This document shows positions 3 to 42,850 of a stretch of 47,869 nucleotides of DNA, piece after piece. The notes under the pieces are model-generated. The model was not told the DNA's origin, did not search any database, and saw only the letters and a program-made list of their open reading frames with translations. Numbering within the stretch: position 1 is the stretch's first letter; each line of letters starts with the position of its first letter. The translations under genes and the position numbers were made by a program. The DNA comes from a virus, in IMG/VR virus record IMGVR_UViG_3300017739_000023, positions 1-47,869 of that record. One strand, given 5' to 3'.

Positions 3-1187
3 GATTATAGGTTTCAGATATTTGAGTTGGCTGATGTTACACAACACGAAGAAACTTTTAGGTTTTACACATTAGCAGAAAAAGAGATAGCTACTAATGA
101 GTTACCTTTCGACTTCCCAACAAGATGGCTATGGTCAGAATATAAGAACTATGGAGAGCAGGTTGACTCTTTTAGAAAGTTTCCTATATCACAGTTCTTT
201 GACTTAGATGGTCAGTATGGAGAGGTGTGGGGTAGTGTATATTTGTTCGATGAAATATTCTCAATACAAGAAAGTGCATTTGCTAAACTGAGAGTAGATG
301 AAAGAGCTGTGCTAACTGGCTCAGATGATTTACAAGTGGTTATAGGAAACCCTAATGTTATGAATGGTGTTGACTATATATCTACTGTGTTTGGTACACA
401 AAGTCAGTTTAGTGCTGTGGTAACAGATGCAGCTGCATATTGGGTAGATGCAAGAAAAGGTAAGTTCTTAAGATATCAAGGAGCTAGAGTAGAAGCTCTA
501 AGTGATATAAGAGGTATGCATTTATTCTTTAACAATCTAAAGCTAGATTATTATAACACCAACTCTAATGATTCTCACACTTTCACTACAGGTATACATG
601 CAGGTTATGATAAGAGAAATTCAGATGTATATATAACAGGAGTAAATGCGTTACACAATGAATCGGGAGAGTCAAACTTTACTGTTATATATAACGAGAA
701 GCTAGATGTGTTTACCACTTTTGTTGGAGCTCAACCACAAAATTATTATACTCTAGGTTCGTCTATATACTACACTGGTAATTCAAGAGGTGTTAATGAA
801 TTTAACACGGGGGGCTATGGTTCTTACCCAGGATTGGCTGCTAACTCTAGTAGTGAGCTAACATTTTTAGTTAATGAAAGTCCTCAATATACAAAAACTT
901 TTGATTCTATTTCATTTAACATGAATAATTCCGTACCTTTGATGAGCTCGCTCTCTCTTTCAGCAGAGACTTCAGACCAGATTGGAGGACCACATCTTTT
1001 GAATCCTGCTGTGGATACTAGGGCAAGGTACAGAGAAAATTTGTTTAAGCTGCCTACTAGAGAATTAGGTAGAGCAGATAGGGTAAGAGGCCAAAGTATG
1101 AAGGTAACAGCTACCTTTAACGGAGGTAATCAGCTCGTAAGAATTACGACTGTAGAAACTAATTACAGATTCTCAAACAGACGCTAA
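3..1187 (+). CDS. Virion/tail structural protein, 5'-truncated
   Basis: The reading frame is open from the first bases of the window, so the true start lies upstream; the first in-window start-type codon is TTG at 27, which nothing supports as a real start. At least 386 residues are visible. The protein is rich in aromatic residues and Asn/Ser/Thr, with alternating beta-strand patterns and a C-terminus running ADRVRGQSMKVTATF then NYRFSNRR. From memory, that ending resembles tail stabilization proteins of crAss-like and podovirus-type phages; this is a resemblance, not a proven assignment. The stop shares its last A with the next ATG (TAATG), suggesting translational coupling with the following virion genes. 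Position at the head of a structural operon supports a virion role. Confidence 0.55.
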   Translation, partial: DYRFQIFELADVTQHEETFRFYTLAEKEIATNELPFDFPTRWLWSEYKNYGEQVDSFRKFPISQFFDLDGQYGEVWGSVYLFDEIFSIQESAFAKLRVDERAVLTGSDDLQVVIGNPNVMNGVDYISTVFGTQSQFSAVVTDAAAYWVDARKGKFLRYQGARVEALSDIRGMHLFFNNLKLDYYNTNSNDSHTFTTGIHAGYDKRNSDVYITGVNALHNESGESNFTVIYNEKLDVFTTFVGAQPQNYYTLGSSIYYTGNSRGVNEFNTGGYGSYPGLAANSSSELTFLVNESPQYTKTFDSISFNMNNSVPLMSSLSLSAETSDQIGGPHLLNPAVDTRARYRENLFKLPTRELGRADRVRGQSMKVTATFNGGNQLVRITTVETNYRFSNRR

Positions 1188-10400: not shown

Positions 10401-13400
10401 AAGATGATGTACACTATGAATTATTCTAGTGACTTATCTCAAAAAAATAAAATAGAAAAACTTTTAACAGACTTATTGTCTATACAGCTAGATAAGTCTA
10501 AAGCTAGTTTCTCTAGTACGGAAAATATAGTAAGAACTTTTGGAAATCAACCTTTGGGCGGAGCTGGAGTATACGGTCAAAATATAGCTCTATCTGCTTT
10601 AGACAACAATGGTTTACTAAACCACCCTAATGTATCCAACCTACTACAAGCTCAGTTGTCTAGAATGCTTGGTAACGCAGGAACAAAACCTAGAGTATCA
10701 GGAGCTCAGCTTCATATGATACCAGACATAGGTAGTGAAGAAAACCTAAAGTTTTATAAAGATGGCGAGACCGTATTCGCAGAAGTAAAAGTGCCAGAAG
10801 GTTTTGCTAATGTAGGTGATGTCTTAATACATGTGAGAATACCTGCATCAGGACCATATAGTGATTTTGTAGCTAAGGTGGTAGGATATACAGGTAAAGC
10901 TGAGGACGGTAGAAATACAATACTTACTCCTGCTGCTTACATAAAAGCATCTAACGCAGACTTTGATAAGGATATGTTGTTTACCTTTAAAAAGTTTGAT
11001 GGTGATAAACTAACACCAGAGCAAAAGATAATCAACGACATACACGAGCAGTTTACTGATGTAATGTTAAGTGACAACTATCGTGATGCTACAAAAGTAG
11101 AGTTAGATGTTGTAGACATCCAAAACAAAGCTCCATTACAGAGCACCTCTGTTTTTGATAGAATAGATATATTTAATAAAATAAAAAGCTCAAGTGCAAA
11201 CATAGGTCAGTTTGCTACGCTGTCTAAGATGTATGACTTCTTACAAGCTAACCAGAATTTTAATAGGTTAGAAGGTGTAAAAAATAAGATAACTTACACT
11301 ACAACAGATGGCAAAAGAATGTCTTTTAAATCTTTTGGGAACACAATACAAGAGTATAATAATAGAAAGCTTGCTTTAGCTAGTATACTACAAACAGCTT
11401 TAGATGATGGCAAGCATTTTAACATGGGTTACACAGGTATTAATAGAGACAATGCTAATCTAGCAGGACTTATGTTAATGTTTGGTGTGGACTTAAATGA
11501 GACTATGAGCTTCTTCAAGCAAGGTCATGTACAAAGCTTCTTTGAAAGTTTTGCTAATATGAACGATTCTTTCTCAAGAAACAAGCCTTTTGTCTCTAAT
11601 TCTTTGACTGGTAGGCTTAGCGAAGAAATATCAGACTTACAAGATACAGCTAAAAAAACAGGGAAAAAATTTACAAAAGAAATAAACGACTTAAAATTTT
11701 TAACAAAGCTAGCTCAAATGTCTAATCAGATGAGACCTGTTAGAGCTGCTATGTCTTTGATGACATCCAACTTCGGTAATAGCATTTTTGATGTATTAGC
11801 TAACAACGAGTTAATGACTAAAAAGTATAGCACAAAAGAAGATGAGCAGTTATATTTTGACGCACAAGTATATTTAGAAAACCCAATCATAAAACATATA
11901 GTAAGTGTATCTAATGAAATAATATCTGCTAATGATAAGATATCATTCTTTGAAAACTCAAACTTTGTAAAAGATATTAGAAAGGAGGTAGAAATAAACT
12001 ATAACTTAGAAGAGGCAACATTAAACGATAGTAGGGTTGTAGCTGCAGTTAAAGAAGCTAGGAGGTTAGCTAATAACTCACAGCTAAAATATGAATATCA
12101 AACTATAGAAGATGTAAATGGTGTGCTAAAGATGATTGACTTCATGAAGAGTCAGCCAAGAACTTATGCAGATGCTATGCCATTCTTATCAAGAATACAG
12201 CTAAGCTACGACACAGACGGTGTGCCTATAAGAATGGCGCACAACAGAAACTTTGATTCTGCTAATGAGCAGCAGATGAATGAGATTAGAGATGCATTTA
12301 ATTCTCTACCAAAAGAAGTGCAAGACATAATATACGACTACTCCTATATAAATAGCGGACTGTTAGGCCATTCTTTCAATATCGTAGAGCTACTGCCTGA
12401 GAGCTATTACACAAACCCTTTGAATAATTTACAAAACATAGAGCGAGGTGGGTTAATAGAGTCTGCTGTTGTATCTTCTTTTGCACAAAACAATATAAAT
12501 GAGTTTAATTTTTACAATGTAACAAAGAGTAATGTATTTAGAGCTACTCAACAAGATATTTCATTGCCTGATATAGATACAAAGTTTAAAGGAATAAAAT
12601 TAGGATTTCTTCCGTCTATAAAAGAAAAAGACCAAATAATTCCTGAACTTGTGGTTTATCAAGACCAGCTGTATGAAAAGATGTCGGGTGATGAAATGAC
12701 ATACAGTTTATCATCTGACTTGTTGTTGTCTAACGTGTATCAAGGCTCAAAGAGAAATATTGTACCAGGACAAACAGATACTAAACCTTTACCTAATGTA
12801 CCGTTTACACGTATACCAAGTCTAACAGAAAGCAGATTCTTTAGATACAATACAGACACACAAGAGCATTCGGTAATAGAAAACGACAATGTATTAGAGT
12901 TAAGTAGAGATGATGTAGACTTTATAAATAATTTATTTGATGGTCAGTTTCCTGATTACTTTGTAGAGGTACAGCCTGACAATAATGTGGGCAACCAAAA
13001 CAATATTGTAAGAGAGTCTGCTACAGGTATAGAGTTGTTTAGGTATCAGTCAGAGGTAGATGTTGAAGTTGATGAGATATTGACGAATATGAAGATGCAA
13101 GCTAAATTTGCGAACGGTGTAGAATCTTTCAAAGACCAATCTAAATATATATTTAGTCAAATAGTGAATGGAGTAAGAAGTCCAGGCTTTAATGTGTTTG
13201 GTACAGAGCAACAAGCTCAACCTAGGACAGAGGTTCCATTTAGCTTCATATCGTTTTCAGAGACATCAGACGCAAAACTAAGCTGGAAGACTGCTAATGT
13301 AATGCTAGAGAAAGGTGGTTTTAATGTTATGTTAAACAAACTGTCAGAGCTTTATCCTTCAGTCATAGTTGCAAAAAGTAAACCAGAGTTCTTAAAGAAG

Positions 13401-16400
13401 TGGGATGGTTCTAATGACGAGAAGTATGGTGTTGCTTTTAAAGAAGGAATGAGAAGAGTTGTGTGGTGGGCTAATAACAACGCTAAGATAGAAAACGCGC
13501 CACACGAATTCTCACACCATTATATAGATATGTTTAGAGCAGACCCTCTTATACAGCAGGCTATACAAAGATATGGAGAGGAAGAGTTAGTTGATAGAAT
13601 GGGTAAGGCTCACTATAAGAGATATACTAGAAGTGCTTTTGCTCAAACTGTAAGAGATATATGGTTTAGAATACAGCAATTTTTTGGAGCGGCTGACATA
13701 GCTTTGGTAATAGAAAATCATTTTAACAAAGGTGTGGCTCCTACATCTAGACTGCTACCACCAGCTACAGTAAATACAAGAAATACAGAAGTTGTAGGTT
13801 ATAAAAGAAAATCTTATTATGGTGATGTTAACTACCTGAATGACAATCAGTTAATGGATGAGAGTTACATCATGGAAGGTTTGTTGGAGTTAGATGATAT
13901 AGGTGTAGCTCCTAATATTATGTTCAACGAAGGTGGTTTCCAGACATCTATAAATGACATTAGTGAGATTGCAGCTGAAGAAAAAATATACGAAAAACTA
14001 TTTCCTTTGTTCTCTCTAGGTAGCGAGCAACAAGCTATGCAGTTATACTTAAATGGCTCTTCTAGAGCTCAGATTAAAAAATCATTTGGCGTTGAGGTAA
14101 GTGATAACTATGAAGGGTTGTTTGAAAAGTATGAAAGACTATTAGACAGAAGACTGGATGGTAAGTCAAGAGGCTCAAGAAAAAAGATTGCTCTTGTAGA
14201 TGATGTCAAACTAGAGTCTATTAAAGAAAAATTAAACTTAGACCCATCATACTCCACAGAGCTTAAGGAGGCACTACTTTTTGGTAGAGGTTCTGAAACA
14301 GTTCAGGCTGACGCTTCTTTAATTAGAAGAGTTCAGCAGTACATTATGACACAGCAAAGAAACAGAAATCTGTTGATACTAAACAATGGAAGTCAGAATA
14401 ATCAAAATGACTTTATGGATTTAGACGATGTAATATCTATTCTAAATCAGCAACTAAACAATGGAAAAAAATCTGCAGTAGGAAATATATTAAGAAGATT
14501 CTCTGTATCATCAGACCTTTTGTGGAAGGGGTTAAAATCTGATATACAGGCTTTTAGTCTAACTGGAGCAAGAAATAATGTTCTGTCTTTGTTTTTAAAT
14601 AAATCTTTTCAACAAGCGCAAAAACAAGAACAGACTATATCCAATGATTTAGTTGACACCTTTAACAGTGTGTTAAGAAGCAGATTAGAAAACGAGTCAG
14701 ACAAAGCTTATATAAAAAGAATGGCTGACCTTGATAGATACTTAGGTATAAACGTAACCACCAATACAGGTAGAAAGGTTATGGACATACTGAACAGTAA
14801 GGCCAAAGTAACTTTACCAACTGCAGATGGTAGCGTTGATATGACGCTGTCTGAGGCTATACATTTAAAGCTCATTGACGAACAACAAGATGTGTCTATT
14901 GTAGGCCAGAAGTTTATATTTGCTGACACTCAGAATGATGAAAGAGGCACCAGAGAATACACTATAGACGCAAGGTTTGTTGGAGAGCTTACGGCATTGT
15001 TTAAAAGAAGTAATAATAATAGACTGTTAAGAGCTTTTAGACAGACGTTTGCTAAAACTTATAATTATGTAAATCCTGTATATAAGTCATTGTACGGAAT
15101 AGATTTAGATTCTGTAGATGGTTATGTTCCAACACCTAGAGGAGAGATTGTTAAAGACAAAACACAAAAGTTTCAGGCTGAAAATGCTCCAGATATAGAT
15201 GAAAAATCTTTTTTATTACCTAGGGTAGATGATGCTACAAAACCTCTTAGAATAACAGATATATTTTCTTTAACAAACAGATACCAAAGAGAAGTATCGG
15301 AGTTTTCTTCTTACGCTATACCATATAGAAATGCTAAGAATCTTTTAGGCAAATTGTTTAGCAAAGAAAATGTAGACCTAGCATTCTCAAAAGACAACTA
15401 CACAAAAACAGAAGTAATAAATGTTAGAGATGCTTTTGATTTGCAAGCAGACAGGTTCATTAGAAGAAAGATGTTAGAGCAAGGTAATTTAAGAGAGTCT
15501 GAAAGATTTTTTGATGGTCTACTTAATAACTTTACTTTAGCAGTTTTAGGTGCTAACCCTTTTGTTGCTGCAAAACAGTTAGCATCTTTGCCTCTAGCAA
15601 CTAATGTTATAGAGGCTAGGTATTTTAGCGACACAAGATTATTATATGGTGGAACTTTTGCTAAGCTAGTGGCTAAAGGATTATCTAACGTAACTGGTAA
15701 AGTGCCTACAGATGACGCAATAATACAAAGAGCTGTAAAACATAGCACTGTGTTTAGACAAAGATTTACACAGGGTAAAGTAGATGTAGACTTGCAAAGA
15801 GCTTTGGGCCTAAGTCCAACTATAGGTCCATCACGAGTTTCTAGAGGTAAAAGAAGAAGAGCTTTCTATAAGAAGTTTTTCCGTATAGACTTAAACGAGC
15901 AGGGTAATGAAAATTTAAGTGCTCTTTCAGCAAGGCTTGGCGATAAGCAAACATACATGGGTTACATACTTGCTATGGATGCTGCTACTGTAGGAACTAT
16001 ATGGAGAGCTGCAGAGAGAAAAGTTAGTGCAGAAAGACCAGAGCTTGAGTTTGACAGCAAAGAGTATGGTGCTTTAGTAGCTTCTATAGCAGAAGAAGCT
16101 CTGCAAAGAACACAGCCAGTATATGATAAAGCTAGCACTCCTACTCTTTTTGAATTGAGAAGACAAAGGGTGTTTATAAGAGCGCTGACTATGTTCTTTA
16201 CGCAGCGTTCACAAAACTATAATCTTTTAACTGAGGCTTACATAGACTTAAAATATAACAAGCCAGGAGCAAGAGCTAGAGCAAGTAGATTGTTTGCTAC
16301 AGTAGCATTTTTAAGTAGCTTAGTAGTTTCTGGGATAGATGTGCTAAGAGACTTTTTGTTCGGCAGATTAGAAGATGAAGATGAGTCAGCTTTGCTTAGA

Positions 16401-16751
16401 CTTTTCAAAAAGTTTCAAGCGGCTGCTTTGGGTAACTTCCCTGTTATAGGAGGACTTATATCAGATGCAATCAACAGATATTCTGGTTCTTCACAATATA
16501 GAGGACCTATACAAAACCCAATAGTACAAGGTATAGATAATCTAATGTATGGCATCACAGCTACTACTAAGGGAGATTTTGAGGGCGGTGTTTTAAGAAC
16601 AGCAAAAGCCGCTGCACAATTTACTGGAACACCTGTTGTAACACCTATTAGTATACTACAAGAAATACTAGAAGAAGAAGAGCCTGTAAGAGTGCCGTTG
16701 AGAAGGGGCTCAGGTGGACGAGGAGCTGGAAGAAGAGGACTAAAAAGATAG
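4431..16751 (+). CDS. Giant polyvalent virion protein with RNAP-like DxDxD motif
   Basis: A 4106-residue single reading frame, over a quarter of the window. Seen: hydrophobic Gly/Ala segments at about 190-290 and 415-435; a Lys/Glu-rich low-complexity region at about 790-950; HEAAH at 1024-1028; GDVLIHVRIP at 2129-2138 followed by NADFDKD at 2175-2181; a second zinc-protease-type motif HEFSH at 3025-3029; and a C-terminal region ending in a hydrophobic segment (near 3955-3975) and a Gly/Arg-rich tail. Known: NADFDGD, preceded about 35 residues earlier by RxP, is the metal-binding loop of RNA polymerase beta' subunits, and DxDxD loops mark the virion polymerases of crAss-like phages. Inferred: a virion-packaged RNA polymerase fused to protease-like domains, in the style of large polyvalent proteins. 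The second DPBB lysines were not identified, so activity is unproven. Confidence 0.8.
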   Translation: MAEDTQKIRSGSALIEDRQEPAKMNFSQFTMDDVVQFYYNPYADDGNAVKMREVVQEAGYDVQQFRRKFNQEIRPFYKKDGGTIPISNPYTWEQDLEIDALTENAIRRGNTTLMGDMGRTFYNSAFINTAAGIKWADDMVGLASDTYEGKKASPESILAMESMLTWMDKHKADVVRDMGHFTDPGLSINDRMSKMALATAQGFGSLVPVIGGSLVGRVVGLLPALIPGGQKLAMVTSKFGGQAGGALGATLNMMPFMYEAARDQGLSPEEASAFAVPTSLAVGISEMVGLSYISSFAGKALAKQTIKEYAKSQGFKTSIKEFSKSTSVNLKAKAIAANLTAQQKIRIAAQTAPRAFLSGFGVEFIQEGAQYYIEDLGKMIHNYHYKNDGTRAEGDGLFIDHSWQKDLRYSLEEAFVGGIVGGFFGAGTSSGSMVLGKNTRRRLGLQPEIAVDAVAPMFIDALQSGKTKRVQSFFDAVNQAIAQEHISKEEGQIALDKLSEIQRLSSKVWKGMKNKGAMQQVLELYRAVEGTDKAIELLNEKYGVTGGAGIEGDVLEQKLKPLRDLKSRVESLINEISQSDNTTNISKESSDIIGLSEIAQDAASEVTNINTIANIQKAVNYGIAETVNKIQKVYSRKILKAKDQDAKQKLQDEMVARIEEETGISIDQLRANNLTPAFEESTQQGRQRGWRGKSQEENDNKIAENESLLKNNPKEAQDRGINNDSKRISELSLDELIAEIHDGRGTAEHMRQARERLQGENYGGKRIATEEDVDDIIYGRDYKSNERADNVETSKVAKKVKEKVKDADLTEDGQEALNEVNQGDDVRLTKSDFNNKNYGVEPSEDGKYNRDDVEKLARKKEQYLSEQRTKREQELSKQKEADKTKKAEILKGKPTEDAEVEADKPKKKTKKRKTTTKQKQDKSEQLNIFDQQETDESLRQEIEDLFKEDESNKTNFSAGGLSPLLTSDFAFKQFLFERMETLFPELSITQVKDIFNEHGVEMLGKIVANSILISDSATQDTILHEAAHPYVDFLRAIDDKLASQALLLFKNTPLYNRVKNMKGNQFLSEEDLAIEVLVTAMSMDSLKKLKAEFEGVSLSRFEKIKQFIKSAWVRTRALFGKAQFNEIVDVLSSDFLKAKRYKKRVNGKTQYYSGAEITLTQQVNRTLMSTLATLVVNGKSIDINNPAQKNALFKAIENLLTKNLSEQVKGENVVTEETRSRVKEVYRKFLGTILPEQDVNDIMRISDENNYSVGYMLARAYQSNIETMLNNMTISQTQISTVLDTQSEGENVQRKDVLSEKAILPESVSTLLKFLIDEDGNLINDEFARSIISSVAERSSTLEEFKKNLRMASKFDVASGPASSAFMNMIDGMRREDGLPLLNEIYSQSPKNFVSLVYAGNELILKNMTEARESAAKEIAANINKKVKGSPNTFSDAYRRYKTITIDLPTFYDVNTKEGDVGLDAAVELLNKAGVEVTRSQLENSPELSQKNFQSIYFFIEDLAKINEVKGYDIYRAQSARLQALTSATQDVFKHLTSFVGQKNNNKPGVDSTSWAQVIGRQWGELSKTVYNGDIFKDNPYVKRLNDIYNKNGSVTQKDYIAFLDAITGDLDSKEHFDMESNEKLFTELAIFSRGTNEYLQSVGVLADRDVNVFFKTKKITNINTVGKLISEIKRLRAAEISRIKKKYKGDKEAVANVDNYLNPDETKIRRELNEIVSLLRALRKQNEIRTNKILGNLTEEQFALSFYANDLINHFHATRFLIGDHAQFGTVENLEKRVAGVLSPNTQLQSEEDLRIVYLKEESFPVEFFGDILDNTGDSFAMNNLSFQRMVKNQGGKIKKYGLNNKPVAFQLDSEGDLFFWKTSTETITTDLRNTSKAYAFFGQLMDAFESKLGSETKIVFAFESAMKGSKKYLDSGAYLDWKDTYNKSFESETDIDGVQGYKKYQFNQDMLNSLAASITEDVIPFSNIGMQGTVSKNPNVGDIALSNQKMMYTMNYSSDLSQKNKIEKLLTDLLSIQLDKSKASFSSTENIVRTFGNQPLGGAGVYGQNIALSALDNNGLLNHPNVSNLLQAQLSRMLGNAGTKPRVSGAQLHMIPDIGSEENLKFYKDGETVFAEVKVPEGFANVGDVLIHVRIPASGPYSDFVAKVVGYTGKAEDGRNTILTPAAYIKASNADFDKDMLFTFKKFDGDKLTPEQKIINDIHEQFTDVMLSDNYRDATKVELDVVDIQNKAPLQSTSVFDRIDIFNKIKSSSANIGQFATLSKMYDFLQANQNFNRLEGVKNKITYTTTDGKRMSFKSFGNTIQEYNNRKLALASILQTALDDGKHFNMGYTGINRDNANLAGLMLMFGVDLNETMSFFKQGHVQSFFESFANMNDSFSRNKPFVSNSLTGRLSEEISDLQDTAKKTGKKFTKEINDLKFLTKLAQMSNQMRPVRAAMSLMTSNFGNSIFDVLANNELMTKKYSTKEDEQLYFDAQVYLENPIIKHIVSVSNEIISANDKISFFENSNFVKDIRKEVEINYNLEEATLNDSRVVAAVKEARRLANNSQLKYEYQTIEDVNGVLKMIDFMKSQPRTYADAMPFLSRIQLSYDTDGVPIRMAHNRNFDSANEQQMNEIRDAFNSLPKEVQDIIYDYSYINSGLLGHSFNIVELLPESYYTNPLNNLQNIERGGLIESAVVSSFAQNNINEFNFYNVTKSNVFRATQQDISLPDIDTKFKGIKLGFLPSIKEKDQIIPELVVYQDQLYEKMSGDEMTYSLSSDLLLSNVYQGSKRNIVPGQTDTKPLPNVPFTRIPSLTESRFFRYNTDTQEHSVIENDNVLELSRDDVDFINNLFDGQFPDYFVEVQPDNNVGNQNNIVRESATGIELFRYQSEVDVEVDEILTNMKMQAKFANGVESFKDQSKYIFSQIVNGVRSPGFNVFGTEQQAQPRTEVPFSFISFSETSDAKLSWKTANVMLEKGGFNVMLNKLSELYPSVIVAKSKPEFLKKWDGSNDEKYGVAFKEGMRRVVWWANNNAKIENAPHEFSHHYIDMFRADPLIQQAIQRYGEEELVDRMGKAHYKRYTRSAFAQTVRDIWFRIQQFFGAADIALVIENHFNKGVAPTSRLLPPATVNTRNTEVVGYKRKSYYGDVNYLNDNQLMDESYIMEGLLELDDIGVAPNIMFNEGGFQTSINDISEIAAEEKIYEKLFPLFSLGSEQQAMQLYLNGSSRAQIKKSFGVEVSDNYEGLFEKYERLLDRRLDGKSRGSRKKIALVDDVKLESIKEKLNLDPSYSTELKEALLFGRGSETVQADASLIRRVQQYIMTQQRNRNLLILNNGSQNNQNDFMDLDDVISILNQQLNNGKKSAVGNILRRFSVSSDLLWKGLKSDIQAFSLTGARNNVLSLFLNKSFQQAQKQEQTISNDLVDTFNSVLRSRLENESDKAYIKRMADLDRYLGINVTTNTGRKVMDILNSKAKVTLPTADGSVDMTLSEAIHLKLIDEQQDVSIVGQKFIFADTQNDERGTREYTIDARFVGELTALFKRSNNNRLLRAFRQTFAKTYNYVNPVYKSLYGIDLDSVDGYVPTPRGEIVKDKTQKFQAENAPDIDEKSFLLPRVDDATKPLRITDIFSLTNRYQREVSEFSSYAIPYRNAKNLLGKLFSKENVDLAFSKDNYTKTEVINVRDAFDLQADRFIRRKMLEQGNLRESERFFDGLLNNFTLAVLGANPFVAAKQLASLPLATNVIEARYFSDTRLLYGGTFAKLVAKGLSNVTGKVPTDDAIIQRAVKHSTVFRQRFTQGKVDVDLQRALGLSPTIGPSRVSRGKRRRAFYKKFFRIDLNEQGNENLSALSARLGDKQTYMGYILAMDAATVGTIWRAAERKVSAERPELEFDSKEYGALVASIAEEALQRTQPVYDKASTPTLFELRRQRVFIRALTMFFTQRSQNYNLLTEAYIDLKYNKPGARARASRLFATVAFLSSLVVSGIDVLRDFLFGRLEDEDESALLRLFKKFQAAALGNFPVIGGLISDAINRYSGSSQYRGPIQNPIVQGIDNLMYGITATTKGDFEGGVLRTAKAAAQFTGTPVVTPISILQEILEEEEPVRVPLRRGSGGRGAGRRGLKR

Positions 16752-31394: not shown

Positions 31395-33161
31395 TTAAAC
31401 ATTAACGTAAAGATGTTTACGCTTGAGAAAATCTAACAGAAAACTGTATTGTTTAGTCTTAGCATAAACACAAAATAATACCCATATATGTGGGTAATTC
31501 TGAAAATGTCCATGTCTCATACATAGACGATAGTCTCTAACAAATATTGGTGAACCAAATTGTTGTACAAAACTACACAAGCACTCTACAAATTCTATGT
31601 AAGCCATAAAACTTTCATACTTTGTTGTGCCTCGGAATAATCTGAACTCATAGGTATTGCTACCCTGAGTGTTGATAGCTGAATATCTAGCACTACTACC
31701 AATAGTACCGTTAAGTAGTTTTTGAACTGTTGTGCTAAACTCATTGTCTGTTACACGACGAGCATAGTGCTCTAATGGTTGAATAGCTGACCACTGGTTT
31801 AGTTTACTTGTAGTTCTTTGACTGATTTTAGTAACAGGCTTAGAACATATATAAACAAACATGATAGCTTTCATCCACTGCAGTTTACTCATACTCCTTC
31901 TGTTGACATGCACATGAATGCCGCAACTACCTGATTTGTATGATGTAGTGCCACGCTTTTTCAAGTCAGACATAAGCTCTTTGTATTTGATAAGCTTAAC
32001 AGCTTCGTATGTAGCAGGATGAGCAACAATCTCATAACCAGCAACACTACTGTCAGACTTACAATACACATGGTCGCCCACTCTATCTTTAGTCATACTT
32101 GCACATACATCATAGTTAACCTTTTGAGGCTCAACCTCAATCTCAATACCTAAGTATCGTAGTTGATTATAGTTGCCTGGTTTAGGGTTTTGTGAGATAT
32201 ATCCTGCTTCGTATGATGATGTAGTTGGTCCGTAATTGTCAACTCTGTAGCCGTTAGGCTTAGTAAACTCAGGGTCAGGACGATAACTATAACTACGTAT
32301 AGTACCCTCATCATAATCATCGTCATCCTCAGATAAATCATCTTCATGAACATATGTATCTTCACGGTCAGACCAATAATAAGAGTTTGCATTAGCAATA
32401 TCTGTAGTCATAAAATATCTGTCAGTAGCCTCTGAATAAGCATAGTCGTCGTTAGTAAAGTAACCTTCATTGCCTCGACTGTCTATAGTACCATAATGAT
32501 AGTCCCATTGAGAAGTATCAAAATGGTCTTCGTTATAATAATCATACTTGATATTAGCAAGCATACCAGATTCTACAGCGTCTCTCAAATACCAATTGCC
32601 ATCAATTTCATAATAATCATCGTATAGATTCTCTTGAAACTCTTCAGATTGCCATTCATCATTACTGATAAAGTGGTTCTTGTTAACAAACTGATATTTA
32701 TCTTGGTGAAAAAGGTCAGGAATACCTTCAACTCTATTGATATTTGCTTTTGATATAATTTTTACAACGTAAAGAATACAAGACGGAAAGCAATATCTTC
32801 TATTGAAGTTTGCTATCTTCATCTTAATACCTGAAGAGGCATGATAAAATCTATCTGCAGTATAAATATGTCCGTCGTTTGTAACACTTGACTCACCATG
32901 ATAATGACGTAAAATAGGTTTACATAACACATGTTTACCTGCATAGTATCTAAGTCTAGTAGTGTTCCAACCTGTATTAGGCCCTTGTGCGTTAATAAAC
33001 TTTTCAGTTAATTTAGGACAAACATAACAGGCCCACTCAAATCGCTCTACATTTGCTTCATTGTTGTAATCTTCATTGTGTATTACAACTCTTACCTCAT
33101 TTACTCCATCTTGGAGCTCGCCAGCATCTATAATACTGACGAAATTACTAAATGCTTTCAT
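31395..33161 (-). CDS. Phage amidoligase (COOH-NH2 ligase family)
   Basis: A 588-residue protein. Residues about 335-570 match the Amidoligase_2 family, which has a glutamine-synthetase-like fold: GIEIEVE at 338-344, CKSDSSVAGYEIVAHPA, SCGIHVHVNRR with GIHVH at 414-418, RYSAIN, and EFRLFRG at 505-511. The family joins carboxyl and amino groups with ATP; its substrate in phages is unknown. The first 330 residues are Tyr/Asp/Glu-rich with repeated short blocks such as YYWSDREDTYVHEDDL, reminiscent of treble-clef repeats that have lost their cysteines. Its partner class II amidotransferase follows immediately. Confidence 0.88.
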   Translation of the reverse strand: MKAFSNFVSIIDAGELQDGVNEVRVVIHNEDYNNEANVERFEWACYVCPKLTEKFINAQGPNTGWNTTRLRYYAGKHVLCKPILRHYHGESSVTNDGHIYTADRFYHASSGIKMKIANFNRRYCFPSCILYVVKIISKANINRVEGIPDLFHQDKYQFVNKNHFISNDEWQSEEFQENLYDDYYEIDGNWYLRDAVESGMLANIKYDYYNEDHFDTSQWDYHYGTIDSRGNEGYFTNDDYAYSEATDRYFMTTDIANANSYYWSDREDTYVHEDDLSEDDDDYDEGTIRSYSYRPDPEFTKPNGYRVDNYGPTTSSYEAGYISQNPKPGNYNQLRYLGIEIEVEPQKVNYDVCASMTKDRVGDHVYCKSDSSVAGYEIVAHPATYEAVKLIKYKELMSDLKKRGTTSYKSGSCGIHVHVNRRSMSKLQWMKAIMFVYICSKPVTKISQRTTSKLNQWSAIQPLEHYARRVTDNEFSTTVQKLLNGTIGSSARYSAINTQGSNTYEFRLFRGTTKYESFMAYIEFVECLCSFVQQFGSPIFVRDYRLCMRHGHFQNYPHIWVLFCVYAKTKQYSFLLDFLKRKHLYVNV

Positions 33162-36619: not shown

Positions 36620-37981
36620 ATGGCTAGCAGAAGTAAACAATACTATGATGCTAACCCTACGGCGAAAGCTAAAAAGAAGAAATATGATACTTCGTATCAC
36701 AGTTCACCAGAGCGTAGAAAGTACCGCTCCAAGCTCAATAAGATAAGAAGAAAGTTAGGAATTTACGGAAAGGGGGGTGGTGATGTTTCTCATACGGCTG
36801 ACGGGGGGTATAAGATAGAGGACCCATCTGTTAACAGGGCTAGACAGGGTGCTGATAAAAAGAGCACAAAGAAAGCAAGCAAAGGCATGGTTACTGCTAA
36901 AAGCGGTTTAGCTAAGTGGTTTGCACAGGATTGGGTAGATATAGGCTCTAAGAAGAAGGGTGGTGGTCACAAGAAGTGTGGTCGCTCTGGCAAGGACAAA
37001 GATGGTAGACCATACCCAAAGTGTGTTCCTGCAGCGAAAGCTGCGCGTATGACGGCTAGTCAGAAGGCAAGTGCGGTTAGAAGAAAGAGAGCTGCAGGCA
37101 ACCCAGGAGGCAAGCCAACGTATGTAAAAACATTTGCAAAACAAGGATTAAAAATATCTTTCAAACAAAATTCAGATAACATGTCAAAATTAGAAAAAAG
37201 AACTACCAAGAAGAAAGTGGTAAAAGCAAGCGGAACAGGAGAGACAAAAAAATCAGGCTTCTTTAGAAGCAAGCCAAATGTATTCACCACTGATAAAGGT
37301 GTTAAGGCAATAAAAAATAGAGGTGGAGAGGTTGAAAATCTTTCAATGAGTTCTATTTCACCGTATCTAAATCCAGGCCTAACTCCAAGTGAGAAGAGAC
37401 AAGCTCTCAGTTCTTTACAAGGAACAAAGAAAATGGCAAATGGTGGAAAGTATGACCCGATTGAAAAAGTATATGTTAAGAGAACTTTAGGTAGAAAAAA
37501 AATAAAGGAAACAACTAAGGGTGGAACGAAGATGAAGACTGTTATAGATAGAAAAGGTAACGTTATAAAGAAGACTGTTGTTGACAGAGATAAGTTCGGC
37601 ATAAAGAGAAGAACAACTACTAAGACCAAGCCTGGTAAGAAAAAGAAAACTGTTGTTAGAGGAGGATATACTCAACCTTTTGGAGACACTAAGAACGCTC
37701 CAGCATTTATGATGTATAAAAAAGGCGGTAAAGCTTTCAAGCCACACATGATGTATGACCCAGAGACAGGAAAAGCTTTCAAAGCTAACAAGCCAGCAGA
37801 CCACGAAAGAATGAGTAAGATGGGATATACTCACACTAAGCCTAAGAAAAAAGCTGGTATGGGTATGAAAAAATACCTTTATGGTGGTATGGTTCCAAAA
37901 TTAGGTCCAGCTAAAAAATTCATCTCAGATTCTGCTCCTTTCTCAACGGCAGTAGACAAATACTACAGAAGTAATAGATAA
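36620..37981 (+). CDS. Large Lys/Arg-rich protein of marine-virus type
   Basis: A 453-residue, very basic protein. The true start is ATG 36620, because an upstream in-frame TTG is the promoter -33 box. Residues 1-75 (KQYYDANPTAKAKKKKYD, GKGGGDVSHTADGG, NRARQGADKKSTKK) and 85-170 (LAKWFAQDWVDIGSKKKGGG, YPKCVPAAKAARMTASQK) contain motifs I recall from uncharacterised proteins in marine phages and giant viruses. The rest has Lys/Thr/Gly-rich repeats and MMYKKGGKAFKPHMMYDPETGKAFKA-type duplication (quoted in parts: KGGKAFKPHMMYD, TGKAFKAN). A DNA-condensing or virion internal protein is an inference from charge. Confidence 0.7.
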   Translation: MASRSKQYYDANPTAKAKKKKYDTSYHSSPERRKYRSKLNKIRRKLGIYGKGGGDVSHTADGGYKIEDPSVNRARQGADKKSTKKASKGMVTAKSGLAKWFAQDWVDIGSKKKGGGHKKCGRSGKDKDGRPYPKCVPAAKAARMTASQKASAVRRKRAAGNPGGKPTYVKTFAKQGLKISFKQNSDNMSKLEKRTTKKKVVKASGTGETKKSGFFRSKPNVFTTDKGVKAIKNRGGEVENLSMSSISPYLNPGLTPSEKRQALSSLQGTKKMANGGKYDPIEKVYVKRTLGRKKIKETTKGGTKMKTVIDRKGNVIKKTVVDRDKFGIKRRTTTKTKPGKKKKTVVRGGYTQPFGDTKNAPAFMMYKKGGKAFKPHMMYDPETGKAFKANKPADHERMSKMGYTHTKPKKKAGMGMKKYLYGGMVPKLGPAKKFISDSAPFSTAVDKYYRSNR

Positions 37982-39012
37982 TGAAAAAGTTACTGTTTAT
38001 ATTAGTATTCTCGTTAATAGCTACTATAAGCCATGCTCAGTTAAAGAAAGTTTTAAAATTTTCAACATTTTATTTAGCTGTTAACGGAGGCACCTCTATA
38101 GCAGACCAAAATGTGTATTCTGTAGATAATTCTTATCTATTTACTGATACTGTACTTACTCCTTACGATTATTCTCTCACACTTGGTATTAGAAAGATAC
38201 AACGCTTTCAATATGAAGGCTCTACTCCATTTAAGGATGGAACGGAGACTTCTTTCTCTGATGCAGCAAACATCGGTAGAAATCCTTTTGAATACCTATT
38301 TGAGGTAGATTACAGACGTCAAGAGGGCGAAGAGTATATTGACCAGAATCATTTCTTAAGATATGTTAGAGACAGATGGTTTGCTAAAGTAGAATATGTA
38401 AAAGATGGTTTTGCTGATATAAAATACTACGAGGCAACACAAAGGCTTCGTCTTATATCAAAACGCAAGCTAAGCTTCAATATAGGGGGTGTACAGCGAT
38501 TAGCAGAGCCATACGGATATAAACCCTTAGAAGAGTGGATAATGCCTTCAGGACATATACATTACACTTCATTAGCTATAAGTGAGGGATATACTATAGA
38601 TGTATATAATCAAGAATACAGAGACCCTCAAGGTAACATAGTTGCAACAAACGCAGCTGTATGGAAAGAAAACGTAGTTCCAGTCATTCTATCTGACTAC
38701 GTAGCTAGAAAAAAATCAGAACTAGATAATATTATACAACACTCTTTTGTGATAGGATTTGACTTCTATCACTACAAGAAAGACTTTTGGTTACACTCTT
38801 GGGGTAACTTTATGCCATACCATTACGATGATGGTAATCAGTTTTCTTATCACAACTTCGTCGGAGGTCAGTGGTATGACTATTCAGGAGGCCTTATCTT
38901 TGGTTATAAATACAACAAACACTTAGGATGTTTCATAGAGGGTAAGTATAATAACTATTGGAACAGAGAGTGGTATGATTTTAAATTTGGAGTAAACTAT
39001 TTAATATTTTAA
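37981..39012 (+). CDS. Putative outer-membrane beta-barrel protein
   Basis: A 343-residue protein with a clear signal peptide (MKKLLFILVFSLIATISHA, cleavage before Gln20), many alternating aromatic beta strands (WFAKVEYVKDGFADIKYYEA, HSFVIGFDFYHYKKDFWLHS, IFGYKYNKHLGCFIEGKYNN), and a final strand ending in Phe (FKFGVNYLIF). C-terminal Phe after an aromatic strand is the BAM recognition signature of outer-membrane barrels. An infected cell would place it in its outer membrane. Possible roles (inferred) are receptor masking, superinfection exclusion or nutrient uptake; it could instead be a virion protein. Start is coupled by TAATG. Confidence 0.75.
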   Translation: MKKLLFILVFSLIATISHAQLKKVLKFSTFYLAVNGGTSIADQNVYSVDNSYLFTDTVLTPYDYSLTLGIRKIQRFQYEGSTPFKDGTETSFSDAANIGRNPFEYLFEVDYRRQEGEEYIDQNHFLRYVRDRWFAKVEYVKDGFADIKYYEATQRLRLISKRKLSFNIGGVQRLAEPYGYKPLEEWIMPSGHIHYTSLAISEGYTIDVYNQEYRDPQGNIVATNAAVWKENVVPVILSDYVARKKSELDNIIQHSFVIGFDFYHYKKDFWLHSWGNFMPYHYDDGNQFSYHNFVGGQWYDYSGGLIFGYKYNKHLGCFIEGKYNNYWNREWYDFKFGVNYLIF

Positions 39013-39014
39013 TT

Positions 39015-39101
39015 ATGAAAGCAAAATTTTGTTTATTAATAAAGCGTATAACATTCGGCGCAGTTTGTTTAAACTGGTGCTCAAAAAACTGTGAGAAATA
39101 A
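39015..39101 (+). CDS. Small Cys-rich ORF, 28 aa
   Basis: ATG 39015 lies two bases after the beta-barrel gene's stop and the ORF ends in TAATG with the next gene. The product is MKAKFCLLIKRITFGAVCLN then WCSKNCEK: basic, hydrophobic in the middle and with four cysteines. It could be a tiny lipoprotein-like or spanin-type partner, but no lipobox is convincing. Coupling at its 3' end argues for translation. Confidence 0.45.
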   Translation: MKAKFCLLIKRITFGAVCLNWCSKNCEK

Positions 39102-39379
39102 TGGCAACAGAAATCGGTAAAGAGACTAAAGTAAAACTTAGCTTAGAAACTATAATAGCGTTGGGTGTTGTACTTGTTAGTATGACAGGTATGTGGTTTA
39201 CATTGCAAGCCGACATACAAGAGGCAAAAGAGTTGCCTGTTGCTCCAGACCCAGAAATAACTAGAATTGAGTATGACATGAAAGACCAACTCATTCGTCA
39301 AACCATTATGACAACACAAGAGGATGTAAAAGATATAAAAGTTACATTAGAAAAAATAGAAGATAAAATTTATAAATAA
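39101..39379 (+). CDS. Membrane-anchored coiled-coil protein (spanin/holin-like)
   Basis: A 92-residue protein with one transmembrane segment (ETIIALGVVLVSMTGMWFTL, about 16-35) followed by a charged helical periplasmic-type tail (EYDMKDQLIRQTIMTTQEDV, then KVTLEKIEDKIYK). This shape matches inner-membrane spanins or small holin accessories; sequence alone does not decide. It sits between an outer-membrane-type protein and secreted proteins, consistent with a cell-envelope role. Confidence 0.55.
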   Translation: MATEIGKETKVKLSLETIIALGVVLVSMTGMWFTLQADIQEAKELPVAPDPEITRIEYDMKDQLIRQTIMTTQEDVKDIKVTLEKIEDKIYK

Positions 39380-39661: not shown

Positions 39662-40003
39662 ATGAAATGGAGACCATTATTCAACTGGTTGTTAGTATTG
39701 TCTTTATTGGCGGTCTCATACACGTCTTTTTCGCAAGTGACAGCGATACATTTTAACGCAGGATTTAACTCTACAAATGATGTTGAGTGGTTCCAAAAAT
39801 TAGGAGACTGTGAAAAGGACACTAAGAGTATTGACGATAATGACAATCAAAAAAAGTACCAGATTGCTGTAGTACCTACAATAGTTATATTTGATGACGG
39901 CGAAGAAGTTAAACGTTTTCAAGCAGACTTAAGTTTTAAGTTGGTAGCTACTAGAAAAGAGGTACAAGACTATATAGATGAATTAATAATTAGTAAATTT
40001 TAA
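39662..40003 (+). CDS. Secreted thioredoxin-like protein lacking CxxC
   Basis: A 113-residue protein with a signal peptide (WLLVLSLLAVSYTSFS, cleavage near residue 24/25). The VVPTIVIFDDGEE stretch (70-82) with Pro72 matches the cis-proline region of thioredoxin folds, and a helical C-terminus follows. The usual CxxC site is missing: the only cysteine is Cys50 in WFQKLGDCEKD. It is therefore not a standard oxidoreductase; a binding or structural role in the periplasm, or a single-Cys chemistry, is possible. It follows two bases after the previous gene. Confidence 0.65.
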   Translation: MKWRPLFNWLLVLSLLAVSYTSFSQVTAIHFNAGFNSTNDVEWFQKLGDCEKDTKSIDDNDNQKKYQIAVVPTIVIFDDGEEVKRFQADLSFKLVATRKEVQDYIDELIISKF

Positions 40004-40004
40004 T

Positions 40005-40754
40005 ATGGGATTAGGTTTAGGACAGGGCGTATCAAGCCCCTCTTATGTTAATACTTTTCAACTGAGCGATATATCAAGCCTAACTGCTTGGTTTAAAAAA
40101 GGCGAAGGTATCACCACTGATGGAGGTAATGTTAGTAGGTGGGTAAGTCAAGTAGGTGATTTTTGTTTTGGGCAAAACACATCTGGAAAACAACCCGTGC
40201 ACGATGCTTTATCTGACGTAATTCAATTCACAAGCGCAAGGCAACTTGATTTAGGTACTGCTAATTTTTCAACTCAAAATACCATAACTAGTGGTGTTAA
40301 TAATGATATTACTGTATGCATAGCAATGAAGATTAATGTTGACAGCACTAATGTTCAAACGAAGTTTCAGCATATACTTGGGCAGGGAAATAATGAAAAA
40401 GTACAAATGTTTTTACCTGGCGACTTTTTTTACATAGGAGGGTCTAGTACAATAACTATGATATTACCAAGTGGTACTTTTGCAGATGATGAGATAGCAC
40501 TGATAACTTGGGTTAATGAAGGTGGGACTAACGGAAATGGTAGATTATTTAAAAATGCAAATACTACTCAACTAAATGACCCAGATACAGGAACTACTGG
40601 TGTTATAAACTTAAGCCAGCTTGGTAATGATGGCGGTCAAAGTAATAGAGGAACTTCAAGCGGTATAATAGAAATAGCTATATTTAACAAAGAGCTAACA
40701 GGTAGTGATTTACAAAATGTATTATCAGATATAACAAGTAGAGTCGGTATATAA
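40005..40754 (+). CDS. Concanavalin/jelly-roll-like virion or surface protein
   Basis: A 249-residue protein beginning MGLGLGQGVSSPS, an N-terminal pattern I recall from phage proteins with a LamG-like domain. Strand-rich sequence follows (LTAWFKKGEGITTDGGNVSR, WVSQVGDF, FFYIGGSSTITMILPSG, IIEIAIFNKELTGSDL). Such domains bind glycans or mediate virion-surface contacts. No signal peptide is seen, so it is more likely in the virion than secreted by the Sec route. Ends in TAATG with the next gene. Confidence 0.6.
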   Translation: MGLGLGQGVSSPSYVNTFQLSDISSLTAWFKKGEGITTDGGNVSRWVSQVGDFCFGQNTSGKQPVHDALSDVIQFTSARQLDLGTANFSTQNTITSGVNNDITVCIAMKINVDSTNVQTKFQHILGQGNNEKVQMFLPGDFFYIGGSSTITMILPSGTFADDEIALITWVNEGGTNGNGRLFKNANTTQLNDPDTGTTGVINLSQLGNDGGQSNRGTSSGIIEIAIFNKELTGSDLQNVLSDITSRVGI

Positions 40755-40972: not shown

Positions 40973-42850
40973 ATGAACAAGTTAACAAAATTTTTATACG
41001 CTTTTATTATGGTTGCAGTGTTTACTGTAGCCACTGCTTTTGGACAATGTCCTCCAGGTACATGGGGTTTGGATGTAATAATAAATCCTGACCAGTATCC
41101 AGAAGAAACATCTTTTGCAGTTTTAAATACACAAGGTGATACGCTTATGCAAGGAGGGCCTTTTCTTGATATTATAGATTATCAACCACAATACATATCT
41201 ACATGTTCACCTATAGATACTTTTATACTTGTTTTAAATGACGAGTATGGCGATGGTATTGCTGGTAGTTTGTGGGGCGGTGAAGATGGAAGTGTTTTTA
41301 TAGAACAATGTGGAGATATAATATGGCAGCTAGATTCACCTGATTTTGGTTATCAATTAATAGACACTTTAATAACTACTGATTGCCCGCCACCTCCACC
41401 AATATTTGGTTGTATGAACCCTGATTATATAGAGTTTGACTTATCGGCTACTGTAGATACAGGTATGTGTTATACACAAAAGGTATACGGATGTACAGAC
41501 TCTTTGGCTTACAATTACTTAGATAGTGCTAATACAGATATTGAGATAGATTCTTGCACACACTACTTAGAGTTAACCGACTTAGCTGGAAACGGTTGGG
41601 CTGGTTCTTCATTGATTGTATCTCAAGCTACAAACTTATCACCACCTTACGGATTTGCAGTGATAGATACTTTCACTTTAATTGATGGCTTTGATACTAC
41701 ATATACCTTAAATTTACAATCTGGTTATTTAATCAAAGCAATATTCGAAATCACTTTTCAGTCTGACTTTACAGCAGTTCAGTGTGGTTACACTATATAT
41801 TCTGATGAGTATATAGCTATAGAACAAGAAGGTGGTTTCGCAGACCCAATACCTCCTTTCATGCATATCACAGGAGAAACCTATTGTGGTAATGAATGTA
41901 TAGAAAGAACATACGGCTGTATAGACAGCTTAGCAGTAAACTATAACGATACAGTAAATACAGATGACGGAACTTGTTATTATAATCCAGGGTGTACTAA
42001 TCCGCTTTATTTGGAGTATGACTCTTCTTACGACTACGACGATGGTAGTTGTGCTACGGTGGTTGTATACGGATGTATGGACTCAACTGCATTTAATTAC
42101 GACCCATTGGCTAACGTTGAGCTACCTGGCTCTTGTATTGCTGTCATAGAAGGCTGTATGGATGATGGTGCCTTTAACTACAACCCAAACGCAAATGTAG
42201 ATGATGGTAGTTGTGTGCCTTTGATATTTGGTTGTATAGACCCAACAGCATTTAATTACTGCGATACCTGTAATACAGATAATGGTAGCTGTATAAGTGT
42301 GCAGTATGGTTGCACAGATAGTTTGGCATTGAACTATGATGATGATGCTAATACTGACAACGGAACATGTATATATCCTTATTATGGGTGCACAGACCCA
42401 GGTGCAGAAAACTATGAGCCACTAGCTAATATAAGCGATAGTAGTTGTTATTACGATGCTGGATGTTATTCTGACCAGCCATACTATTTACCAAACGAGT
42501 GTTTAGAATGGGTAGTATCTGTAGACCCTTTCTGCTGTGATAACGAGTGGGACACTCCTTGTCAAGATTTATATAACTACTGTCAAGACGGATGGACAGG
42601 ACCAACAAATATATCTATGTTTGAAAGACTAGGACTATCAGTATTTCCAAACCCTACATCTGGTATGGTTTATTTCTCAGAAGCTGTAGATATAGAGGTG
42701 TATGATTTAATGGGTAAAAAAGTTGCATCCTCTGATAATAAAAAGTATATTGACATGTCAAATTTAGAAGACGGTATGTACAATATAATTGTAGAATACA
42801 AAGAATTACTAATACATAAACTAATAATTAAAAATGGCAACACCTACTAA
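40973..42850 (+). CDS. Secreted Cys-repeat protein with T9SS C-terminal sorting domain
   Basis: A 625-residue protein. A signal peptide (TKFLYAFIMVAVFTVATAFG, cleavage near residue 24) is followed by nine repeats of the GCTDSLALNYDDDANTDNGTC type spread from about residue 143 to 500, and a Cys-rich module. The C-terminal 75 residues carry LSVFPNPTSGMVYFSE, IEVYDLMGKKVAS, NLEDGMYNIIVEYK and HKLIIKN: the type A sorting domain (Por_Secre_tail) that directs proteins through the Bacteroidetes type IX system to the cell surface. Repeats of this sort are known in surface proteins of marine Bacteroidetes. Inferred: the infected cell exports it; possible roles are adhesion, shielding or aggregation. 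It overlaps the next gene by 17 bases. Confidence 0.85.
   Translation: MNKLTKFLYAFIMVAVFTVATAFGQCPPGTWGLDVIINPDQYPEETSFAVLNTQGDTLMQGGPFLDIIDYQPQYISTCSPIDTFILVLNDEYGDGIAGSLWGGEDGSVFIEQCGDIIWQLDSPDFGYQLIDTLITTDCPPPPPIFGCMNPDYIEFDLSATVDTGMCYTQKVYGCTDSLAYNYLDSANTDIEIDSCTHYLELTDLAGNGWAGSSLIVSQATNLSPPYGFAVIDTFTLIDGFDTTYTLNLQSGYLIKAIFEITFQSDFTAVQCGYTIYSDEYIAIEQEGGFADPIPPFMHITGETYCGNECIERTYGCIDSLAVNYNDTVNTDDGTCYYNPGCTNPLYLEYDSSYDYDDGSCATVVVYGCMDSTAFNYDPLANVELPGSCIAVIEGCMDDGAFNYNPNANVDDGSCVPLIFGCIDPTAFNYCDTCNTDNGSCISVQYGCTDSLALNYDDDANTDNGTCIYPYYGCTDPGAENYEPLANISDSSCYYDAGCYSDQPYYLPNECLEWVVSVDPFCCDNEWDTPCQDLYNYCQDGWTGPTNISMFERLGLSVFPNPTSGMVYFSEAVDIEVYDLMGKKVASSDNKKYIDMSNLEDGMYNIIVEYKELLIHKLIIKNGNTY

Follow-up and report, generated by a model that had tools for sequence, protein, structure and literature searches.

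A crAss-like phage gene encoding a predicted cargo of the host type IX secretion system, with export tags retained across its relatives

The type IX secretion system (T9SS) is used by Bacteroidota for secreted enzymes and gliding adhesins. Why a virus should encode a protein bearing the sorting domain of this system, and whether such a protein is exported by the infected cell, are questions raised by one gene of a viral contig, the IMG/VR record IMGVR_UViG_3300017739_000023. The stretch analysed here (the window) covers positions 1 to 47,869 of that record and is a genome fragment. A sequence-only reading had proposed that the gene specifies phage-encoded T9SS cargo, and this proposal is now strongly supported by sequence, fold, conservation and selection. 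The gene and the parts of its product are as follows.

40973..42850, plus strand: predicted T9SS cargo gene including its stop codon, 625 aa from an ATG start (open reading frame and translation).
40973..41044, plus strand: Sec signal peptide, aa 1-24, by pattern only, with cleavage expected before Q25 (Q-rule).
41045..41389, plus strand: N-terminal beta-domain of the 'YGDG' type, aa 25-139 (AlphaFold2 strands, pLDDT mostly 82-91).
41408..41557, plus strand: Cys repeats 1-2, aa 146-195 (repeat scan; Cys columns invariant in the alignment).
41558..41908, plus strand: second beta-domain, aa 196-312 (AlphaFold2 model).
41915..42448, plus strand: Cys repeats 3-9, aa 315-492 (repeat scan).
42464..42607, plus strand: Cys-rich linker, aa 498-545 (conserved columns; three short helices and then a low-confidence stretch in the model).
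42641..42832, plus strand: T9SS type A C-terminal sorting domain (CTD), aa 557-620 (PF18962, TIGR04183, fold match 8glk_D, dN/dS 0.21).

The open reading frame lies exactly where it had first been placed, and nearly all of the features named in that reading were recovered. By pattern, the N-terminus MNKLTKFLYAFIMVAVFTVATAFGQ is the proposed Sec signal peptide, ending AFG/Q. Nine repeat units of the form GCxxxxxx(N/E)(Y/F) were counted, as claimed, most of them the canonical GCxDxxAxNY and some variant (including GCMNPDYIEF and GCTNPLYLEY), and the protein contains 33 Cys in total. The motifs FPNPTSG, VYDLMGKKV and KLIIKN are all present near the C-terminus; KLIIKN had been described as terminal, but the protein ends KLIIKNGNTY, four residues further on. 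An AlphaFold2 model built from a 59-row alignment reached a mean pLDDT of 77.8, with most CTD blocks at 82-89 and a pTM of 0.31 that makes the arrangement of the domains unreliable.

The C-terminal domain is the part that connects the protein to the T9SS. Residues 557-620 match PF18962 with 41.5 bits (1.6e-10; cut-off 27) and TIGR04183 with 31.3 bits (1.5e-7; cut-off 23), so that the profile comparison suggested by the sequence-only reading exceeded both curated cut-offs rather than returning no sorting-domain match. The domain belongs to type A and not to type B (TIGR04131). In the AlphaFold model, residues 565-620 form a confident beta-sandwich, and the predicted fold is Ig-like, as in T9SS type A cargo. 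Its top PDB match is the CTD of NucA in a T9SS complex (8glk_D; E 2.2e-4, prob 1.00, TM 0.79 on target), followed by the CTDs of mirolase and FspA. Clear PDB matches came from the CTD alone, the remaining matches of the cargo not being meaningful.

The window itself is crAss-like (Crassvirales) phage DNA, as identified through the structural gene with which it begins.

27..1187, plus strand: C-terminal part of a crAss muzzle protein (PF25731 7.7e-47, PF25729 4.9e-7).

Other genes of the window match DnaB-like helicase, exonuclease VIII, amidoligase, holin and metallophosphoesterase families; DnaB was dropped as a placement marker because it is too widespread. The amidoligase-type enzyme (31395-33161, minus strand; PF12224, 6.5e-11) carries an extra N-terminal half of ~330 aa. 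A protein of 4106 aa (4431-16751, plus strand), which gave no significant Pfam match, recalls in size and position the giant proteins associated with crAss-like virions. When viral contigs were scanned, relatives of the cargo were found encoded on 95 stretches, of which 80 were kept, most spanning nearly the whole protein; the family occurs on at least 80 IMG/VR contigs, which answers the suggestion that homologues be sought in other phage contigs. The crAss muzzle family was detected in all 46 long related records (over cut-off in 40) and the crAss capsid family over cut-off in 15 of 38. One record (G001, which contains locus L002) encodes capsid, P22-like portal, ring 1 and ring 2 proteins; capsid, portal and ring proteins were seen in relatives only, the window being a fragment. 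Records without a capsid match, which mostly show partial or weak muzzle matches, may represent a sister lineage. The terminase family PF03237 had no match in 24 records and is uninformative for this crAss-like lineage. Among isolated phages, the cargo had no relative beyond its Cys repeats, and no relatives of one family CTD or of the neighbouring barrel and thioredoxin-like proteins described next were found.

Three genes recur within about 8 kb of the cargo across the 80 loci, in an order that varies between loci.

37981..39012, plus strand: exported 343-aa predicted outer-membrane beta-barrel with 14 strands, near the cargo in 70/80 loci (model and fold matches).
39101..39379, plus strand: 92-aa protein with an N-terminal TM segment and a coiled-coil-like tail, near the cargo in 73/80 loci (read from sequence).
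39662..40003, plus strand: exported thioredoxin-like protein lacking CxxC, near the cargo in 76/80 loci (weak thioredoxin matches).

All of these partners look like envelope-type proteins, and the cargo, judged by its sequence neighbourhood, forms part of a conserved module of envelope proteins. The barrel model (pLDDT 76.7, pTM 0.66) has 14 long strands; its best PDB matches, to the NanC porin and other barrels, reflect a generic fold only, and the BFVD viral protein A0A516LKJ4 shares the fold over its length (TM 0.69). Identification of the barrel as PorP/SprF or PorV was considered and rejected, given the generic nature of the fold matches and the lack of sequence support; none of 58 barrel members had a PorP/SprF Pfam match, and Pfam did not identify the barrel as PorV either. 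In a 25-row alignment, the thioredoxin-like protein shows no CxxC, with PT invariant at the position where cis-Pro is expected, and because CxxC is absent it is not expected to act as an oxidoreductase. PHROGs searches gave no match for the module genes except a weak, uninformative one for the 92-aa protein. The window also encodes a 249-aa protein (40005-40754, plus strand), its gene lying between those of the thioredoxin-like protein and the cargo. It has no signal peptide and looks in sequence like a domain of the concanavalin A/LamG type; only seven relatives turned up nearby, and Pfam-type profile and PHROGs searches returned no family match.

The export tags are retained throughout the family. 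A small-x-small site followed by Gln is present in 59 of 59 complete relatives (alignment A1), which upholds the earlier claim of a signal peptide, and the invariant Q25 at +1 fits the Q-rule of Bacteroidetes, by which signal peptidase I substrates carry Gln at this position (PMC5837995). At E<=0.01, TIGR04183 matches 38 and PF18962 37 of the 59, while reading of the sequences finds a full-length CTD in 43 and a short C-terminus in 16; since 43 full-length domains exceed the 38 matched, about five appear too divergent for TIGR04183. All of the short C-termini and some of the full-length CTDs score below the curated models. Across the 46 long records, PF18962 matched in 33 (28 over cut-off), once per record and in the cargo gene; a second, weak match occurred in one record only, inside a 2509-aa frame. 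Because a search based on the cargo could bias the apparent retention of the CTD, relatives were also gathered independently through the neighbouring barrel. Relatives of the barrel are encoded on at least 578 IMG/VR stretches, of which 80 were kept, and 79 loci were analysed. A complete cargo with CTD is present in 59 of these; in 6 the end of the locus truncates the cargo, in 14 no cargo was detected, and a complete cargo without CTD was found in none of the 79. Little sequence is available for most of the 14, with the exception of L164 and L231, where 2-6 kb is available on one side and no cargo was detected. Of the 23 members newly found in this way, 19 match TIGR04183 and 4 have the short form according to HMMs built here. 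Every complete relative, the 59 and the 23 found via the neighbouring gene, thus ends in a type A CTD or the short C-terminus.

The short C-terminus comprises ~45 residues with the consensus LIMITDILGRPxKxxKNxLLFFIYxDGTVEKKxIK, resembles the second half of a type A CTD and is matched by neither TIGR04183 nor PF18962. Its phage carriers are listed here.

L042, L048, L052, L059 and L065-L080: phage cargo with the short C-terminus (alignment A4).

In five of six marine Bacteroidota metagenome-assembled genomes (MAGs) that encode SprA, a model of this segment found 7-32 matches in each. At twelve host loci (L238-L249) the match stops 0-4 residues before the stop codon, and host open reading frames with a visible start and this C-terminus mostly have a signal peptide. 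Such sequence features suggest that the short C-terminus is probably an undescribed or uncurated T9SS tag.

The CTD of the cargo is under purifying selection: in pairs with >=60% identity and 0.1<dS<2, the median dN/dS was 0.21 (IQR 0.16-0.29; 105 non-independent pairs, none >=1). The body of the cargo, whose median dN/dS in close pairs is also well below 1, varies in concert, with pairwise identities of the N-terminal and middle domains correlated at rho 0.9. The correlation with the N-terminal domain is moderate for the CTD (about 0.4), and signal peptide identity is uncorrelated with that of other parts (0.1-0.2). Individual pairs of loci show the same independence. In L003/L004 the barrel is 98% identical and most of the body 91-95%, but the CTD 33%, with DNA identity dropping just upstream of the CTD; in L027/L041 the CTD is replaced between similar flanks; in L002/L050 the body is replaced (56-77% DNA identity) within surroundings that are 86-100% identical; and L047/L049 and L009/L010 differ essentially only in the signal peptide (29-33% identity). 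On these alignments, signal peptide, body and CTD are exchanged separately by recombination, and the tags are never lost. Since tags are swapped but not lost, selection seems to act on export rather than on any particular tag sequence. A near-identical signal peptide (MNKFTKFLYAL...) was also observed on the thioredoxin-like gene in L039 and L051 and on the cargo in L058, which suggests shuffling of signal peptides between genes of the module.

The sequence-only reading had regarded phage-borne T9SS cargo as undescribed, and this was wrong. A 2019 study reported proteins with T9SS sorting domains in crAss-BACON phage contigs, in one case fused to BACON domains (PMC6949934). Those contigs are likewise crAss-like, but the body there is BACON and here consists of Cys repeats, and the passages of that study consulted here report no analysis of conservation, selection or partners (PMC6949934). 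In 2020, three T9SS cargo genes were described in Cryophage, with hijacking of host secretion and superinfection exclusion proposed (PMC7468147). That phage resembles the present group in having type A sorting domains in a phage of Bacteroidota that vary between phage variants by recombination; compared by description, its cargo consists of an endoglucanase, a GH39 protein and a PA14 protein in one phage, whereas the cargo here is a Cys-repeat protein without an enzyme domain, carried on many contigs with a partner module (PMC7468147). No other prior report of phage T9SS cargo was found in the open-access literature. The conservation across a phage group, the partner module and the swapping of tags are what is new here. 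The sequence-only reading had also overlooked the crAss-like identity of the phage, the envelope module around the gene and the separate exchange of signal peptide, body and CTD. Cellular counterparts exist in the secreted Cys-repeat proteins of marine Flavobacteriales, which have the same GCxDxxAxNY repeats, a signal peptide and C-terminal T9SS-type tags; these proteins are mostly larger than the phage cargo and, three phage contigs in MAGs excepted, are unlinked to the barrel/thioredoxin-like module.

Taken together, sequence and structural models make it very likely that the cargo is exported by the T9SS. SprA was found in 6/6 marine Bacteroidota MAGs whose secreted proteins share the cargo repeats; these stand for the type of the candidate host. 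The PorV shuttle serves type A CTDs; type B cargo relies on cognate PorP/SprF barrels, whose genes often lie next to those of the cargo (PMC12618676). Since the CTD here is of type A, PorV is the default shuttle. In the explanation that we favour, to which we give an even chance as a whole, a crAss-like phage infecting a marine Bacteroidota host would make the disulfide-rich repeat protein; Sec would export it, and signal peptidase I would cleave it so that Gln becomes the first residue; the host T9SS (SprA translocon, PorV shuttle) would then move it over the outer membrane by means of its CTD, to end on the cell surface or be released. Attachment to the surface is judged somewhat likelier than release. 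The repeat body, which resembles secreted proteins of the host, would remodel the surface of the infected cell and mask or occupy the receptors of competing phages, resulting in superinfection exclusion. Exclusion as the main benefit is the leading guess and a tentative one; the sequence-only reading had suggested shielding of receptors, aggregation of cells or binding of glycans as possible roles. The open-access literature offered no usable source on phage resistance of T9SS mutants.

The co-conserved outer-membrane barrel may anchor the cargo or help to place it. Such a role is attractive but speculative, and points against the favoured explanation include that the barrel is not among the recognised shuttles of the T9SS and that type A cargo is expected on the host PorV. 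Pairs of type B cargo and PorP/SprF likewise combine a secreted surface protein with an outer-membrane barrel encoded beside it (PMC12618676); unlike in those pairs, the CTD here belongs to type A and the barrel bears no recognisable likeness to PorP/SprF. A bolder version, which we consider rather unlikely, would make the module a portable surface-display kit with an exchangeable body, Sec/T9SS tags suited to the host and a dedicated phage barrel that shuttles or anchors the cargo.

We know of no earlier virus-encoded pair of T9SS cargo and anchor, and such a kit would be the first. More generally, a widespread marine crAss-like phage group, with its partner barrel on hundreds of stretches, appears to rely on the host T9SS to place a protein outside the cell. 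If so, the surface of infected marine Bacteroidota is defined by the virus, and the need for a compatible T9SS could limit phage host range. The tag swaps between near-identical genes constitute a natural experiment on host-specific T9SS tag function.

The same export could instead serve adhesion: as an adhesin or by binding glycans, the cargo would make infected cells clump or attach to particles and so bring new hosts within reach of the burst. The long disulfide-rich repeats, a length that varies from ~600 to 1134 aa between relatives, the presence of the same repeats in large secreted host proteins and the finding of no catalytic domain in the cargo by domain search are all compatible with this alternative; neither a ligand nor a known binding fold was identified, the PDB matches outside the CTD are not meaningful, and we regard adhesion as possible but improbable. 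Less likely still is competition for the host T9SS, in which abundant cargo would lower the display of T9SS-dependent host surface proteins, phage receptors possibly among them, and thereby change susceptibility or motility. It is the tags, and not any particular body sequence, that are always kept, as this would predict, but the body is also conserved and constrained, which a mere competitor would not need.

A very unlikely alternative is that the cargo is a virion component, for instance a Cys-repeat appendage, whose CTD-like end serves some other purpose. The gene is placed between the capsid and muzzle genes in some relatives, and large neighbouring proteins share its repeats; however, a Sec signal peptide with Gln at +1 in every complete relative and a T9SS CTD are not virion-protein features, and the large repeat-bearing neighbours have no CTD match. 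These neighbours, proteins of >1000 aa encoded upstream of the barrel with GCxDPxAxNY repeats, are possibly virion proteins that share a domain with the displayed cargo.

L160:2-3112, L161:3-3815, L171:1-3657, L173:2-3325 and L162:3-3332: large repeat proteins upstream of the barrel.

Host DNA joined to phage sequence by mis-assembly, which the sequence-only reading had itself raised, or a chance CTD look-alike has a negligible probability and was rejected: host proteins with the same Cys repeats and CTDs are common, but many independent contigs share the neighbours and crAss genes, the muzzle is universal in the long records, G001 has its structural set, ~5 kb with phage-type genes continues downstream of the cargo gene, and the barrel gene was not found in 99 genomes of one bacterial order, in a search without a positive control. 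Among contigs from bacterial genomes, the module occurs only on those with the full-length cargo relatives L082 and L083 and on the fragment L125, and the best reading of these is that phage contigs were binned into MAGs. In the case of L125 (CALBOT010000064.1), the module fragment sits inside an archaeal MAG assigned to 'Candidatus Nitrosopelagicus', a binning error in a public genome.
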